This document shows positions 16,086 to 22,624 of a stretch of DNA of 42,390 nucleotides, piece after piece. Below the pieces are notes generated by a model that searched no databases, was not told the origin of the DNA, and worked only from the letters and a program-made list of their open reading frames with translations. Numbering within the stretch: the stretch's first letter is position 1; the number at the start of each line of letters is the position of its first letter. Made by a program: the position numbers and the translations under genes. Source of the stretch: Gemmatimonadota bacterium. Its GTDB lineage: Bacteria > Gemmatimonadota > Gemmatimonadetes > Longimicrobiales > Gaopeijiaceae. The stretch covers positions 1 through 42,390 of the forward strand of contig DQPL01000071.1 of NCBI GenBank assembly GCA_015664885.1, read 5' to 3'.

Positions 16086-16835
16086 TCAACGACCCCCTGC
16101 TGCGGCAATCTCGGCGAAGGAACGGGGATCCAAGCTCGCGCCGCCAACCAATACACCGTCTACGTTGGCGGCACCGAGAAGATCCGCTGCGTTGCTCGGC
16201 TTCACGGAGCCTCCGTAGAGGATTGGCCTGCGCACGGCAGCTGCGAGGCCTAGAGCAGCCTCGAGTCGCGTACGAAGCGTGCTGTGGGCATTGGCCGCGT
16301 CGTCAGGCGTTGCGGTTTCCCCCGTGCCGATGGCCCAGACCGGTTCGTACGCGAGCAGGAAGCGTCCGTCGTTGCCCTCGAGGGCCTGCAGCGCCGCATC
16401 TAACTGCCCGAGGATGACCTCGTCGACGCGACCCTCCTGCCGCTGCGAGAGAGTCTCCCCCACACAGACCACCGGGACCAGGCCATGGCTACAGCAGGCC
16501 GCGATCTTCAACGCTACCTCTTCGTTCGTTTCGCCAAAGACGTGCCGCCGCTCCGAGTGTCCGATCAGCACGTGACTCGCCCCGGCTTCGGCTGCCATGG
16601 CGGCGGAGGTCTCACCGGTGAACGCGCCTCCATCCTGCCAATGGATGTTTTGCACGCCCAGCTGAATACGGGAATCGCGATCGGGGCATGCAGCGGCCAC
16701 CCCCAACGAACTCACAGGCGGAAAGATCAGCAATTCGTTCTTGCTGGCGCTCTCGTCGAGGTCGAGTTCGGCAAAAAAGGCACGCGTCTGGGCTGCACCC
16801 ATGTGCATCTTCCAGTTGCCAGCAATCACAGCCAT
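16086..16835 (-). CDS. tpiA: Triosephosphate isomerase
   Basis: A 249-aa glycolytic enzyme interconverting DHAP and glyceraldehyde-3-phosphate. Catalytic residues are Asn7 and Lys9 (AGNWKM), His93 (VLIGHSERR) and Glu164 (AYEPVWAIGTG). The phosphate-binding ending is ILYGGSVKPSNA ... DGVLVGGASLD. Full family length. The ATG overlaps the end of pgk by 10 bases, so it is translationally coupled to it. Confidence 0.97.
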   Translation of the reverse strand: MAVIAGNWKMHMGAAQTRAFFAELDLDESASKNELLIFPPVSSLGVAAACPDRDSRIQLGVQNIHWQDGGAFTGETSAAMAAEAGASHVLIGHSERRHVFGETNEEVALKIAACCSHGLVPVVCVGETLSQRQEGRVDEVILGQLDAALQALEGNDGRFLLAYEPVWAIGTGETATPDDAANAHSTLRTRLEAALGLAAAVRRPILYGGSVKPSNAADLLGAANVDGVLVGGASLDPRSFAEIAAAGGR

Positions 16836-18046
16836 CTGTCGTACTCCCTATCGCTCAGTGACTCGACCCCGGGTAGCGCCGCGCCCGCCAGCAACGCGAG
16901 CGAAGCGCCGCCACCCGTGGATACGTGGCTCAGTCGCTCGACGACGCCGGCCTGCGCCGCCGCCGACGCGGTCTGCCCCCCGCCCAGGACGCCGAGCGCT
17001 CCTTCGTCACATGCATCGGCTAAGGCGCGCGCCACCTCCACCGTGCCCGCGGCGAACGCGGGAATCTCGAATACCCCCATGGGTCCATTCCAGACGACCG
17101 TGCGCGCGCTGGAGACGATGCTCCGGTACAGAGCTCGGGTCTCGGGACCGATGTCCACGATTCGATCCATGTCCCCGACCTCGGCCCGAGCAACCACTCG
17201 CGTCTGCGCGTCTGGGGAGATGTCGCGCGCCACGACGCAGTCGACGGGCAGCGTGAGTTTGTCACCGGCTGCTTCGACCAACTCGCCGGCCATGTCGATG
17301 CGATTCTCCTCGACGAGCGATTCGCCGGTGGCCAACTGCATGGCCCGAAAGAACGTGTTCGCCATGGCTCCCCCGATGAGCAGGCAATCCACACGCGGCA
17401 GCAGCGCCTCAACCACATCGATTTTCCCCGAGATCTTCGCTCCACCGAGAATCGCGACGAAAGGTCGCTCAGGACTCTCCAGCGCCTCCCCCAGAAACTC
17501 GAGCTCACGCGCCATCAGGAGTCCCGCGACCGCGTCGCCGCCTCGCGCTGTTACCGCCCTCGCCAAACCCACGGTGGAGGCATGTGCCCGATGCGCGGCC
17601 CCGAACGCGTCGTTCACAAACAGGTCGGTCAGTCCAGACCAGGTGGCCGCGAGTTCCGGGTCGTTCACCGTCTCGCCGGGGTGAAAGCGGGTGTTCTCGA
17701 GCAACGCGATCTCTCCGTCGCCTAACGCGAAGATGGCGTTCTCTCCGCCCTGGCCAACCGCGTCTCGCACGAACAGCACAGGTCTCCCCAGCCGATCGCC
17801 CAGGTACGCAGCCACTGACGCGAGCGAGAGGTCCGGACTCGGGCGGCCTTGCGGCCGACCCATGTGCGACAGGACGACCGTGCGAGCCCCCGCCTCGTGA
17901 AGCGTAGTGAGCGTCGGCATCGAGGCCTCGATACGCTGTACGTCCAGGACACGCCCGGACTCTATGCGCACGTTGAGATCCGTGCGGACCAGCACCGTGC
18001 GACCGCGCAAGGTCGCTCGGTCGATGTCGGCGAGCGTCTTCTTCAG
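16826..18046 (-). CDS. pgk: Phosphoglycerate kinase, probable non-ATG start
   Basis: A 406-aa enzyme making ATP from 1,3-bisphosphoglycerate. Motifs are VLVRTDLNVRI, the substrate-binding VVLSHMGRPQG, PFVAILGGAKISGKIDVVEA, NGPMGVFEIPAFAAGT and GVLGGGQTASAAAQAG, followed by the family's ending VSTGGGASLALLAGAALPG. Homology begins at KKTLADID, right after the upstream stop codon, and no in-frame ATG or GTG exists there. The CTG at 18044-18046 gives the family-typical N-terminus. The next canonical option is TTG at 18010, which would lose about 12 residues. An upstream ATG (18172) would add 42 unconserved residues inside the preceding gene. It lies 4 bases after the GWxTD-like gene. Confidence 0.92.
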   Translation of the reverse strand: MKKTLADIDRATLRGRTVLVRTDLNVRIESGRVLDVQRIEASMPTLTTLHEAGARTVVLSHMGRPQGRPSPDLSLASVAAYLGDRLGRPVLFVRDAVGQGGENAIFALGDGEIALLENTRFHPGETVNDPELAATWSGLTDLFVNDAFGAAHRAHASTVGLARAVTARGGDAVAGLLMARELEFLGEALESPERPFVAILGGAKISGKIDVVEALLPRVDCLLIGGAMANTFFRAMQLATGESLVEENRIDMAGELVEAAGDKLTLPVDCVVARDISPDAQTRVVARAEVGDMDRIVDIGPETRALYRSIVSSARTVVWNGPMGVFEIPAFAAGTVEVARALADACDEGALGVLGGGQTASAAAQAGVVERLSHVSTGGGASLALLAGAALPGVESLSDREYDRWL

Positions 18047-18050
18047 CGGC

Positions 18051-20918
18051 TCAGTCCCAGTCCTGATCCGGGTCCTCGCGCCGATCCAGGTCGCGCTGAG
18101 CGACCACGCCGGCTCCAACCTCCGGAACGTCCACGATGATACGCAGTGTGTGCCTGCCCCTTTTGACATCACTCAGCGCGACCGTGAGGAATTCGCTCGT
18201 GAGGCCGCCCGCGGCAGGGAAGCGATCCCAAGTCGGTCGGAAGCCGTCCTCCCCGGCTGGGCGGATGGGCACGCCGGTCACGACACCGGTCTCTCGATCC
18301 ACGACCTCCGCACGCAATCGGTACCAGGGCACAGCGGCTCCGGTCTCGTACACCTCGAAGTAGACCCCGAGCGCATCGGAATCGAGTGAGTTGACGAGCG
18401 AGAGCGGCTCGAACCACTCGGCGTAGCGCGAGACGTGCTTAGGCGAGCGAGTCGGCCGCACCATGAGCAGGTCCGAGACCGCCACCGATCCGTGCGCGAC
18501 CAGCGGCATCACGGCTTGACGGATCGCGCCGGCCTGCCCGGTCCGGCGGTTGAAGAACTCGACCACGACGCTCGCGACCTCCGGTGAGGTCAGCGCGCGT
18601 AGGGCAACCGGGGTCACTTTAGCTCTAATGCGGCGTTGTGTGACCCCACCAGGGATCTGGTTTCCCTCTGCGTCAATCAAGAAGAGTCTCAGGTCGAGCG
18701 TATCGGACAGATTCCTCGCGAGGAACTCCGGCACCTCGGTATGGATCTGCACCTCGAGCGCTCCCGGCTCACCACCATAGAAGCGCGTCACCTGCCCAGG
18801 AAGCGTGAACACCGACCGGCTGGCGGCGCCATAACGGTGCGCGAGCACCTCGCGCAGGTCGTCCGCATACGCGCGCCCTTCCGTGGTCAGGTCCATGGCC
18901 CGCGAAGAGCCGACCCTCGAGAACGTGAAGTCGGGGCCAGCACCGTAGTCCCAGAACTCGGTCCGTAGTCCCGCGCTCCGACCGATGGTCTTGATGTCCG
19001 TCGGCCGTCCATAACGAATCCACACCTCGCCAGCGTCGCTGGACGTCGATCCGAAGCGCAACTGGGAGTATGCAGAGCGCGCGATGTGCTCGACGGACCG
19101 CTCGTTCACCGCGGTGGACAGGATGGGGTCGAGCGGGGCCCAAAACCGCTGCTCCCATTCCCGCCGTTCGTCGCCCGCCTCGCGCCGATAGTCTGCAAGA
19201 GCCTCTTCGCCCAAAACGAAGCGCACGTCCTGAAGCGCATCCGCCTCTGATTCGGACAAACCCCGAAGCGCCAGCGTAAACTGGTCCTGAGCCTCGTCAG
19301 AACGAGCCAGGCGCTGAAGCGCGAGACCGCCGATGAGCAACCCGTAGGGGTGGCCCCTGGAGGCTCGCACGAAGCGTCGGGCACCATCGAGCACCTCGCT
19401 CCAACGGCCCTCGTCGGCCAGTGCAAGCAGGACTTCGACGTTGGCCCCGACATGTTCCGGATAGGCGGCAACGGCGGTGTGGAACGAAGACATCATGTCA
19501 CCGAGATTGTCCGTCCCCCGCTGCTCGGTCGCCTCGAACCCAGAATCCAATACGTCGGCGAGCTCCTCCGGACACAGGTAATTCCAGGCGATGAGCCGGT
19601 CTGCCAAAGCGAAGTCGCCGCCGCCCCTGTCCGTCGACGTAGCCGTCGCGCAGAAAGCGCCGTCAAAAGCGTCCGCGGACACACGGCCGAGATCGCGGTA
19701 CGCGAGCCAAGCTTCCTTGATCAACGTCGCCCGCTGGTAATGGAGCTCGGCGAAGAGGCTCGGACTGACGCCAGCGCCCGCTCGCTCGGCGCGCTGAATA
19801 CCCCGCTCGAAGAGGGCGCGGGCTTCGGTTCGAAGGCCCTGTTTCCGACGGATTCGTGCCAGCGCAAGGAGTGGCGCCGGATTGTTCGGGTCACGCACCA
19901 TGGCCTGCTCGAGCACCAAAGTGACTCCGGAGCGCCATTGGGTCGGCGCGGCTCCCGCCGGGGGCTCCCCGGCGAGAATCGATTCGATGGGACCCAACTC
20001 CTCGATGACATCGTGGTCATCGATCGCGACTTCCAGAAGCTCTCCGGCTTCCCGCTGCACGGGCGCCAGCAGGGCGATCTCGCCCTGCCACTCCGGGATC
20101 AAGGTCAGGTCGAGCGGCTCATCGACTTCCGGGCCCTCGAACGCTTCTACGACCGGGAGCGCGAGCGGATCGATCGCATCCGGGTTCGTCCGGAAGACGA
20201 CGGGGAACTGGACCCACGTCCCCACGGGGCTTCCCCGCCTGGTCGCGGGAACGAAGCGGATCGAAGCTGCTACCTGAAGCGCTACACGGTCGAGCTCAGG
20301 CACGCCCGAGCCCTCCACCAGGTTGACGTTGTCGACCGCGCCGGTCGAGTCGACCCAGAGCATCAACGCGACCGAACCGCCGATGCCCGCGCGCTGGAGT
20401 GCGAGGGGGTAGCCCCGAAAGACCAGAGCCTCCACCCGAGCGCGATCCGCCACCTCGGGCAAGGTGGGCGCGGGCCAGTCAGTTCGCTCGATAGCCTCGG
20501 GCCCCGCCGGCGGCTCCATGGGCACCGTACCGCGCCGAGAGACCTCTTCGGTCCGCTCGACGGGCGGCGGCACCACAACCGCCGGCGTCGGATCCGGCTC
20601 TGTCGGTCTCGCCTCTGGCTGCGCATCCGCCGGAACGGCATCGTCACTCTGGAAGGAGCCGATCAGACGGACCAGCGATGCTCGAGCCGAAGGCACTCCG
20701 GCGGTCGCCAGAAGCAATGCCACCACAGCGGCGGCCGCAAACGGACGGACCGAGGTCCGGCGCCGGGACTTCAATCCAACCCATGCCTGAGCAAGCTCGG
20801 CCTCGAGCTCCGGCCCAAACGATGGCCGTTCCTCATACCGAATCGCGGACAGTTCGGCGTCCAACGCGCGCAGCTCGTCGGGCATCGGCGAGGCCTCGCG
20901 GGCGAATCTATTCTTCAT
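18051..20918 (-). CDS. Anti-sigma-like / TonB C-terminal / GWxTD-like fusion protein
   Basis: A 955-aa membrane-anchored protein. Residues 1-57 form a charged cytoplasmic segment placed like an anti-sigma domain, without a zinc motif. About 58-78 is a transmembrane helix (RPFAAAAVVALLLATAGV). About 95-150 is Pro/Glu-rich linker. About 160-245 is a TonB C-terminal-like domain (PLALQRAGIGGSVALMLWVD, VEGSGVPELDRVALQVAAS, RFVPATRRGSPVGTW). About 335-560 are helical TPR-like repeats (ALARIRRKQGLRTEARALFE). About 588-645 resembles the GWxTD domain (REWEQRFWAPLDPIL, NERSVEHIARSAYSQLRFG, GEVWIRYGRP) but without the literal GWxTD motif. A beta-rich C-terminal part follows. Its start overlaps the ECF sigma gene by 11 bases, so it is probably that factor's membrane regulator. 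Function unknown. Confidence 0.75.
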   Translation of the reverse strand: MKNRFAREASPMPDELRALDAELSAIRYEERPSFGPELEAELAQAWVGLKSRRRTSVRPFAAAAVVALLLATAGVPSARASLVRLIGSFQSDDAVPADAQPEARPTEPDPTPAVVVPPPVERTEEVSRRGTVPMEPPAGPEAIERTDWPAPTLPEVADRARVEALVFRGYPLALQRAGIGGSVALMLWVDSTGAVDNVNLVEGSGVPELDRVALQVAASIRFVPATRRGSPVGTWVQFPVVFRTNPDAIDPLALPVVEAFEGPEVDEPLDLTLIPEWQGEIALLAPVQREAGELLEVAIDDHDVIEELGPIESILAGEPPAGAAPTQWRSGVTLVLEQAMVRDPNNPAPLLALARIRRKQGLRTEARALFERGIQRAERAGAGVSPSLFAELHYQRATLIKEAWLAYRDLGRVSADAFDGAFCATATSTDRGGGDFALADRLIAWNYLCPEELADVLDSGFEATEQRGTDNLGDMMSSFHTAVAAYPEHVGANVEVLLALADEGRWSEVLDGARRFVRASRGHPYGLLIGGLALQRLARSDEAQDQFTLALRGLSESEADALQDVRFVLGEEALADYRREAGDERREWEQRFWAPLDPILSTAVNERSVEHIARSAYSQLRFGSTSSDAGEVWIRYGRPTDIKTIGRSAGLRTEFWDYGAGPDFTFSRVGSSRAMDLTTEGRAYADDLREVLAHRYGAASRSVFTLPGQVTRFYGGEPGALEVQIHTEVPEFLARNLSDTLDLRLFLIDAEGNQIPGGVTQRRIRAKVTPVALRALTSPEVASVVVEFFNRRTGQAGAIRQAVMPLVAHGSVAVSDLLMVRPTRSPKHVSRYAEWFEPLSLVNSLDSDALGVYFEVYETGAAVPWYRLRAEVVDRETGVVTGVPIRPAGEDGFRPTWDRFPAAGGLTSEFLTVALSDVKRGRHTLRIIVDVPEVGAGVVAQRDLDRREDPDQDWD

Positions 20919-21531
20919 GGCCTCGCACGTCCGCCGTGGGGTCCTGCACCACGTCCTTCAGGCGCTTGAGCGCGCGGTGGAGGCGCACTGCAACCGCGTT
21001 GTTGCTGATGTCCAGATATTCGGCGATCTCGGCGTTCTGGAGTCCCGAGCCGTATCTCAGCGAGAGGATGTCCTGATCCGCCTTGCGCAGCATCTGACTT
21101 CCGTTGAGCAACCGCTGAATGCGCTCCTGTTTGATGACGCGTTCTTCGGCCGACGGCACGTTGGCAACCAGATCGGGAATCCGGTCGAGAGACACGTGCA
21201 GCGAGCCTCTGCGCTGGAGGGCCCTCAAGTGGTCGGTCACGGCGTTGCGAGCGATCCGCAACAGCCAGGTGCGCGGCGACGCACGCGAAGAATCGTACCG
21301 ATCGAACGACCTCAAAGCCTTCATGAAGACGTCGGAGGTCACGTCCTCGGCGGCTTCGCGCGTGGCTACGCGGAAGCGTATGCAGCGAAAGACCGCGCTC
21401 TGGTGCTCACGAAACCAGGTCCCGAAGTCGTCTGGAAGTGCTAAAGGCGCGGGGGCCGGAGCAACGCGGGGCGCTGGGTCGGATACTCTCAGTAGTGTCT
21501 GCATCGCCCTCGTATACGGGGATTCAGCCAC
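20908..21531 (-). CDS. RNA polymerase ECF sigma factor
   Basis: A 207-aa ECF sigma factor. Region 2 has TREAAEDVTSDVFMKALRSF and SPRTWLLRIARNAVTDHLRAL. Region 4 has LRKADQDILSLRYGSGLQNA and EIAEYLDISNNAVAVRLHRA. The longest frame starts at GTG (21529-21531) after AAGG. An ATG nine codons in (21502-21504), preceded by GAGGG, is an equally good start. It is coupled to the fused membrane protein downstream and lies between gap and pgk, so it may share the glycolytic transcript. Confidence 0.92.
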   Translation of the reverse strand: MAESPYTRAMQTLLRVSDPAPRVAPAPAPLALPDDFGTWFREHQSAVFRCIRFRVATREAAEDVTSDVFMKALRSFDRYDSSRASPRTWLLRIARNAVTDHLRALQRRGSLHVSLDRIPDLVANVPSAEERVIKQERIQRLLNGSQMLRKADQDILSLRYGSGLQNAEIAEYLDISNNAVAVRLHRALKRLKDVVQDPTADVRGHEE

Positions 21532-21541
21532 GGACCTTACA

Positions 21542-21595: not shown

Positions 21596-22624
21596 CTAGA
21601 CGTCGGCCGTCGCCGGCAGGCGCTCGCCGACGTAGCGCACAAGATCCACGACGCGATTCGAGTAACCCCACTCGTTGTCGTACCATGAGAGGACTTTCAC
21701 CATCCGGCCGGACATGACCGAGGTGGAGAGCGAGTCGACGATCGAGCTGAACGGGTTGCCGCGGTAGTCGATGGAGACGAGCGGCTCGTCTGAAACGTCC
21801 AAGATGCCTTGCAGGGCACCACTCGCGGCGTCCCGGAAGGCCGCGTTGACCTCTTCGGCAGTGGTGTCCTGCTCCACTTCGACGACGACATCGACGATGG
21901 ACACATCCGAGGTCGGTACACGCAGTGCCATGCCGTCGATGCGACCCGCGACCGCTGGCAGTACGAGCCCGGTCGCCTTGGCCGCACCAGTGGTGGTCGG
22001 GATCATCGAAATGCCGGCCGCACGAGCGCGCCTGAGGTCGCTGTGCGGCAGATCCAGGATACTCTGGTCGTTGGTATACGCGTGGATGGTCGTCATCAAG
22101 CCGTGACGGAAGCCGAAGCTCTCCACGAGTACTTTCACCACGGGCGCGAGACAGTTGGTCGTGCAACTCGCGTTGGAGATCACATCGTGAGTCTCGGAGT
22201 CGTACTGATCGTGGTTGACACCGAGCACGATGGTGATGTCCTCGTTCTTTCCGGGAGCGGAGATGATCACCTTCTTCGCACCCGCCGTAAGATGTTTGGC
22301 CGCTCCATCACGGTCACTGAAATGACCGGTCGACTCGATGACGATGTCGATGCCGAGGTCCGCCCAAGGGAGCTGAGCGGGGTCGCGCTCGCTGAAGACT
22401 GCGATCTCGTCGCCGTCGACCACCAAGCCGCCGTCGGCGACGTCGACGCTGCCAGGGTAGTGCCCGTGCACCGAGTCGTATTTGAGCAGGTGAGCGAGCG
22501 TCGCCGCGTCGGTGAGATCGTTCACCGCGACGAAGTCGATGTCCTCGCCGCCGGCCTGCTTCGCGCTGCGTAGGACATTGCGGCCGATGCGACCGAATCC
22601 GTTGATGGCTACCCGGATTGGCAT
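21596..22624 (-). CDS. gap: Glyceraldehyde-3-phosphate dehydrogenase, type I
   Basis: A 342-aa NAD(P)-dependent enzyme that makes 1,3-bisphosphoglycerate. N-terminal [10 protein letters not shown]-type nucleotide fold ([14 protein letters not shown]), VNDLTD, catalytic Cys154 in [12 protein letters not shown] and His181 in [10 protein letters not shown]. Then [20 protein letters not shown], and near the C-terminus [12 protein letters not shown]. It is preceded by AGGAG. It heads the gap, sigma, fusion protein, pgk, tpiA array. Confidence 0.97.

Follow-up and report, generated by a model that had tools for sequence, protein, structure and literature searches.

ECF (extracytoplasmic function) sigma factors typically act in responses to stress, to metals or to events in the envelope, so what would one of them do inside a glycolytic gene array? 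In a Gemmatimonadota bacterium of the Gaopeijiaceae (assembly GCA_015664885.1), the window, meaning the whole stretch of 42,390 nt analysed from contig DQPL01000071.1, carries the genes of an ECF sigma factor and of a 955-aa membrane protein between gap and pgk. We consider that the two very probably form a sigma/anti-sigma pair, and we favour, with confidence somewhat better than even, an autoregulated switch built into the gap-pgk-tpiA array. Such a switch would be of a known type, its sensor new and its target unusual.

A sigma gene and a membrane-protein gene between gap and pgk

In the Pfam search, the 207-aa open reading frame (ORF) matched Sigma70_r2 (E 3e-17) and Sigma70_r4_2 (E 1e-11), both above cut-off, and with regions 2 and 4 alone it is an ECF sigma factor. 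Its best NCBIfam match was the BldN family (TIGR02952) at 125.4 bits, short of the curated cut-off of 206.45, which leaves it outside that family. The pair resembles BldN/RsbN of Streptomyces in that BldN (6dxo) was the best PDB match of the sigma factor; it differs in the score below the TIGR02952 cut-off and in the head of the membrane protein, which has no sequence match to RsbN.

A sequence-only reading of this stretch had placed the pair between gap and pgk, with an 11-base overlap of the two genes and pgk 4 bases downstream, and the ORF coordinates agree. The sigma ORF (20908-21531, minus strand) and the 955-aa ORF (18051-20918, minus strand) overlap by 11 bp, and pgk starts 4 nt past the stop of the latter. 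Gene overlap and order of this kind are typical of sigma/anti-sigma pairs. The start of the sigma gene had to be moved: because the predicted promoter (21513-21541) overlaps the longer ORF, and an ATG at that spacing is conserved in relatives, the GTG at 21531 most likely gives way to the ATG at 21504. The pgk start, at 18044-18053, seems to be CTG here and in G001 (CTG AAG AAG); several relatives have ATG, GTG or TTG.

A sigma orthologue was found in 15 of 59 relatives, all of one family (f1). In a sample of 395 genomes of the phylum, 41 from f1 matched the sigma factor at E < 1e-60. Beyond these, no more than five genomes reached 1e-45; they belong to family f4, and their sigma gene is not next to gap. 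The set compared here consists of those 41 genomes plus G011 and G013. The sigma gene lies directly after gap in 43/43, and pgk comes next after the anti-sigma gene or its remnant where the contig suffices, the exception being G140, with 2.5 kb between the two. The order sua5-lmwPTP-aroE-comF-gap-[pair]-pgk-tpiA-secG-pdhA-pdhB was kept in most genomes. Since 43 orthologous loci share the pair, the pairing is not due to chance, and the gap-sigma-pgk synteny that had been put up for checking in Gemmatimonadota is conserved in family f1. A search of a collection of genome contigs returned only one further locus, on JAJCZZ010000059.1 from a Gemmatimonadota metagenome-assembled genome; this contig is the one that G019 also contributes.

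The insert in G140 (L173), about 2.5 kb long, holds two ORFs, one of 212 aa and a lipoprotein-like one of 387 aa, and occurs in this genome only. In G003, also of f1, a Zn-ribbon-like ORF stands between gap and the sigma gene (L039:1558-1797). A gap-pgk insert of similar size in family f2 was considered as a divergent sigma pair and rejected, as it holds a Zn-ribbon gene and an alpha/beta hydrolase (L067-L073).

In a tree of gap, pgk and tpiA, the 11 f1 genomes without the pair formed one clade, and the pair occurs in the sister clade (support 0.65). On this tree the pair arose once and was then lost jointly about six times (G028, G024, G034, G012, G022 and the group G031/G015/G004), the count being approximate because some inner nodes are weak. 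The losses removed both genes, many of them in small genomes, and each left gap adjacent to pgk. In genus g14 (L037, L185) both genes are decaying, with different lesions in the two genomes and pgk intact. The sigma gene of G014 has an in-frame TAG and its anti-sigma gene a TAG plus frameshifts, and in G304 one deletion fuses residue 162 of the sigma factor to residue 884 of the anti-sigma protein. Such joint loss is as expected of a sigma factor and its inhibitor.

The second gene occurs at the locus in a long form of about 940-955 aa, a short form of 250-280 aa (head, transmembrane (TM) helix and TonB_C), a form of about 700 aa without beta-sandwich domains (genus g6) and one of 547 aa without TonB_C (G009). 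The tails of the anti-sigma proteins formed one group apart from the separate TPR-GWxTD proteins of the relatives (branch support 1.00). This would be explained most simply, if not conclusively, by one fusion event and later losses of the tail.

The anti-sigma-like protein and its possible release

Earlier, the 955-aa protein had been described from its sequence as a head, one TM helix, TonB_C, TPR-like repeats and a GWxTD-like domain, and this layout agreed with the Pfam and NCBIfam matches, the hydropathy and the AlphaFold2 (AF2) model. The head and the TM helix are the sole parts common to all architectures, the TonB-less one included. The head carries the motif LDxELxxIxxEERPSFGPEL and two predicted helices (14-29 and 34-51, AF2). 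A class I anti-sigma domain (ASDI) is a three-helix bundle plus a fourth helix (PMC7406223); compared with that fold, the model has two helices ahead of the TM helix, with predicted local distance difference test scores (pLDDT) of 62-73, and the Hx3Cx2C zinc motif, optional in the ASDI class, was absent from the aligned heads. Class II domains, which are CnrY-like, have two helices binding sigma4 and sigma2 (PMC7406223). The pair may resemble CnrY/CnrH in that two helices preceding the TM helix would make up all of the sigma-binding part, as predicted in this low-confidence model; it differs in that the head has no sequence match, and in its sensor and target.

Directly after the TM helix stands P76-x-A78-R79-A80 (PxARA), within the predicted amphipathic helix 76-90. 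In RsiV, the AXA site for signal peptidase lies within an amphipathic helix and is opened to the enzyme when a ligand binds (PMC8844934), and the window protein likewise has a candidate AXA site in a juxtamembrane helix predicted to be amphipathic. The pair is like RsiV/SigV and RsiP/SigP of Bacillus (PMC8844934) in joining an ECF sigma factor to a single-pass anti-sigma protein whose TM helix is followed at once by a site of the signal-peptidase type. It differs in its TonB_C-TPR-GWxTD ectodomain, which has no Pfam match to DUF4179, in lying in a glycolytic operon and in that its cleavage site is a candidate only. The genome encodes S26 and M50 proteases. These are near-universal and hence simply permit the release model. 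Release by signal-peptidase-type cleavage is proposed tentatively, as somewhat short of probable.

The protein could also be an anti-sigma factor that lets go by a change of conformation or through a TonB-dependent receptor, with no signal-peptidase cleavage, as in a simplified form of cell-surface signalling; PxARA would then be a juxtamembrane anchor only. TonB_C meets TonB boxes in canonical systems, which would suit such a route, and so would the degraded PxARA of several g25 genomes. However, PxARA is present in 26 relatives among the tabulated heads (it is absent from the TonB-less G009), and P76, A78, R79 and A80 vary little or not at all across the aligned TonB-bearing homologues, in a stretch that is otherwise variable. 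In addition, Pfam gave no FecR match in the 955-aa protein at E up to 1, and the conserved neighbourhood of the pair has no TonB-dependent receptor gene. We regard this route as doubtful. The pair would resemble FecI/FecR signalling (PMC9249621, PMC11637429) in connecting outer-membrane TonB-system proteins with an ECF sigma factor, whereas here TonB_C is fused to the anti-sigma protein itself, and neither a FecR domain nor a receptor gene nearby was found.

As for the ectodomain, the TonB_C-like domain scored above the Pfam cut-off, and 21/21 TonB-bearing homologues scanned carry it. TonB energy transducers have a conserved TM His that couples to ExbB/D. The window protein has the TonB_C domain of such transducers and lacks the TM His, and since the TM helices are without His, TonB-like energisation through ExbB/D coupling is unlikely. 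The TPR-like repeats were weak by sequence (TPR_19, E 4e-4, below its own cut-off) but supported by the AF2 model, in which residues 286-563 had pLDDT of about 90 over most of their length and TPR proteins as Foldseek hits. These proteins filled the Foldseek results of the N-terminal half, where the fold comparison covers TPR, not TonB_C.

The GWxTD domain (TIGR04514) scored 35.3 bits against a cut-off of 28, and 14/16 homologous tails also matched. Its eponymous motif is missing, as had been read from the sequence: FGSTSSDAGEV stands in its place, and the aligned homologous tails lack the motif too. A PDB search by sequence with the GWxTD tail gave no meaningful hit and no solved homologue, and most of the GWxTD core had pLDDT < 50. 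The C-terminal Ig/FnIII-like beta-sandwiches (702-947), which the earlier description did not contain, had pLDDT of about 85-95 over most of their length. Their structural matches were generic (best Z 10.2, root-mean-square deviation 3.0, 112 aligned, to RbmA), and they are the part really compared in the fold search of the tail. Some separate tail homologues begin with signal-peptide-like sequences, which fits an exported tail, and a position of the TonB_C/TPR/GWxTD part outside the membrane is supported by the sequence. That it senses a TonB-dependent partner is an uncertain suggestion, on the unlikely side; the TonB_C match shows no more than the presence of the domain.

The predicted promoter and the reach of the pair

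The motif TGTAA[C/G]-N16/17-CGTA was found just upstream of the sigma gene in 24/43 loci in its strict form and in 33/43 in its loose form, against mononucleotide shuffle means of 0.0075 and 0.18 (maxima 1 and 4). It had been drawn up by eye from the initial 15 genomes, of which 11 have it, and the strict form occurred in 13 of the 28 genomes fetched afterwards. The -35 element of BldN resembles TGTAAC. The upstreams of gap, pgk, tpiA, aroE and comF gave 0 strict hits and at most one loose hit, no such promoter stood upstream of gap in 41 genomes, and a sigma70-type promoter scan of the region found none. An ATG follows the -10 hexamer by 7-11 nt in nearly all cases, so a transcript with little or no leader is expected. 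At the level of sequence, the sigma gene carries a predicted autoregulatory promoter, as expected of an ECF sigma gene, and autoregulation through it is highly likely.

Only 2 strict sites exist in the whole genome of the window, and whole genomes hold 0-6. A reversed control pattern gave as many or more sites in most genomes, so most isolated hits are due to chance; most other exact matches share no common gene. In six genomes, the motif with its ATG occurred once per genome at the sigma gene and at two sites elsewhere, and the reversed control gave no hits. This near uniqueness suggests that the sigma factor would chiefly drive its own near-leaderless operon, reading into pgk-tpiA.

In G000:C106 and G019:C11 (L096, L094), the motif precedes a gene for an esterase-like lipoprotein and then one like an outer-membrane protein (OMP) barrel, a possible second target. 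The best Pfam match of the lipoprotein was PF10503 or PF06500, just below cut-off, and its ORF is longer in G019 than in G000. That a terminator generally separates gap from the promoter was considered and rejected, strong hairpins occurring in genus g5 only (L035, L186; GC hairpins, z -3.7 and -4.3). These are possibly terminators, and pgk there would then depend more on the sigma promoter.

The pair might instead stand between gap and pgk by descent, controlling itself and perhaps an envelope unit, with pgk transcribed from a promoter before gap and the motif serving ordinary positive autoregulation. The repeated clean losses with pgk intact would agree with this, as would the second motif-bearing unit (esterase-like lipoprotein plus OMP-barrel-like gene) in G000 and G019, and the spacing to pgk, which ranges from 0 to 153 nt where measured, apart from the 2.5-kb insert in G140. 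But the position is constant in 43 genomes and the promoter almost unique in the genome. Moreover, pgk usually lies within 0-150 nt, at 0-2 nt in some, and no terminator was seen between it and the anti-sigma gene in the window, so that read-through into pgk is expected. We therefore regard a pair kept there by descent as unlikely, and control of pgk-tpiA as fairly probable. For the transmembrane regulator proposed in the sequence-only reading, a link to central carbon genes gains real support from the predicted autoregulatory promoter, which would read on into pgk; that it senses a TonB-linked or outer-envelope state is a suggestion only.

Table 1 Positions of the pair, its parts and its neighbours in the window
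Feature	Position	Strand	Basis
ECF sigma factor	20908..21504	-	Pfam Sigma70_r2/r4_2; ATG start conserved in relatives
Predicted sigma-dependent autoregulatory promoter, TGTAAG-N17-CGTATA	21513..21541	-	Bipartite motif in orthologous loci
Membrane anti-sigma-like protein, 955 aa	18051..20918	-	ORF, domain matches, orthologous loci
Cytoplasmic head, residues 1-57	20748..20918	-	Conserved in every architecture, TonB-less included
Single TM helix, residues 61-77	20688..20738	-	Hydropathy (Kyte-Doolittle) maximum 2.16
Predicted amphipathic helix 76-90 with candidate signal peptidase I (site-1) site	20649..20693	-	AF2, low confidence; PxARA
TonB_C domain, residues 170-243	20190..20411	-	PF03544 E 6e-14
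TPR-like alpha-superhelix, residues 286-563	19230..20063	-	AF2 model; Foldseek
GWxTD domain without GWxTD motif, residues 561-658	18945..19238	-	TIGR04514 35.3 bits
Two Ig/FnIII-like beta-sandwich domains, residues 702-947	18078..18815	-	AF2; generic structural matches
pgk, presumed co-transcribed target, probably CTG start	16826..18046	-	PF00162; spacing
tpiA, next gene of array	16086..16835	-	tblastn synteny in relatives
gap, upstream neighbour, beyond reach of predicted promoter	21596..22624	-	PF00044/PF02800

The proposed switch and its meaning

That the 955-aa protein is an unrelated envelope protein (TonB-like or a secretion part), co-transcribed and not anti-sigma, is very improbable: neither Pfam nor the PDB matched its head to a known anti-sigma domain, but the head is the one soluble part kept across the short, long and TonB-less forms, both genes were lost or decayed together, and their overlap and order are as usual for sigma/anti-sigma pairs. 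With a conserved head, overlapping genes and joint loss, the pair appears to behave as the sigma/anti-sigma module that had been surmised.

Several findings weigh against an autoregulated switch in the array. The head was modelled with low confidence (pLDDT 62-73), and its PDB search gave no meaningful hit among solved anti-sigma domains. Some genomes of genus g25 have a weakened PxARA and G009 has none, and no His occurs in the listed TM segments. Even the loose promoter is missing from 10/43 loci, and no terminator consistently stands between gap and this promoter. Where relatives lack the pair, gap and pgk adjoin, so that pgk can be made without it.

In the autoregulated switch we favour, the head would hold the sigma factor at the membrane at rest, as CnrY-type two-helix anti-sigma domains do. 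The ectodomain would sense a change in the envelope, perhaps as TonB_C meets a TonB-dependent receptor or as the tail meets another partner, and with this change signal peptidase I would gain access to PxARA in the amphipathic helix beside the membrane. The sigma factor would next be freed by an RseP-type protease, as with RsiV. Once free, it would activate its near-leaderless promoter, so that expression of sigma, anti-sigma, pgk and tpiA would exceed what transcription starting upstream of gap provides. A more specific version is put forward tentatively, as less likely than not: a membrane-tethered sigma factor serving mainly lower glycolysis, in which TonB_C, repurposed as a sensor, would respond to the state of the envelope or to uptake across the outer membrane, and regulated proteolysis together with a self-amplifying near-leaderless promoter would set pgk-tpiA expression.

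In the literature we found no paper on this pairing of a sigma factor with a TonB_C-GWxTD protein, and none mentioning GWxTD. The promoter and the PxARA site yield sharp and cheap predictions, and the broken pairs of genus g14 are natural knock-outs for comparison. If the proposed switch is true, it would give the GWxTD domain its first testable role and make TonB_C a sensor part instead of an energy transducer. It would also connect the cell envelope directly, through transcription, with core metabolism (pgk, tpiA), in an arrangement kept across a bacterial family.

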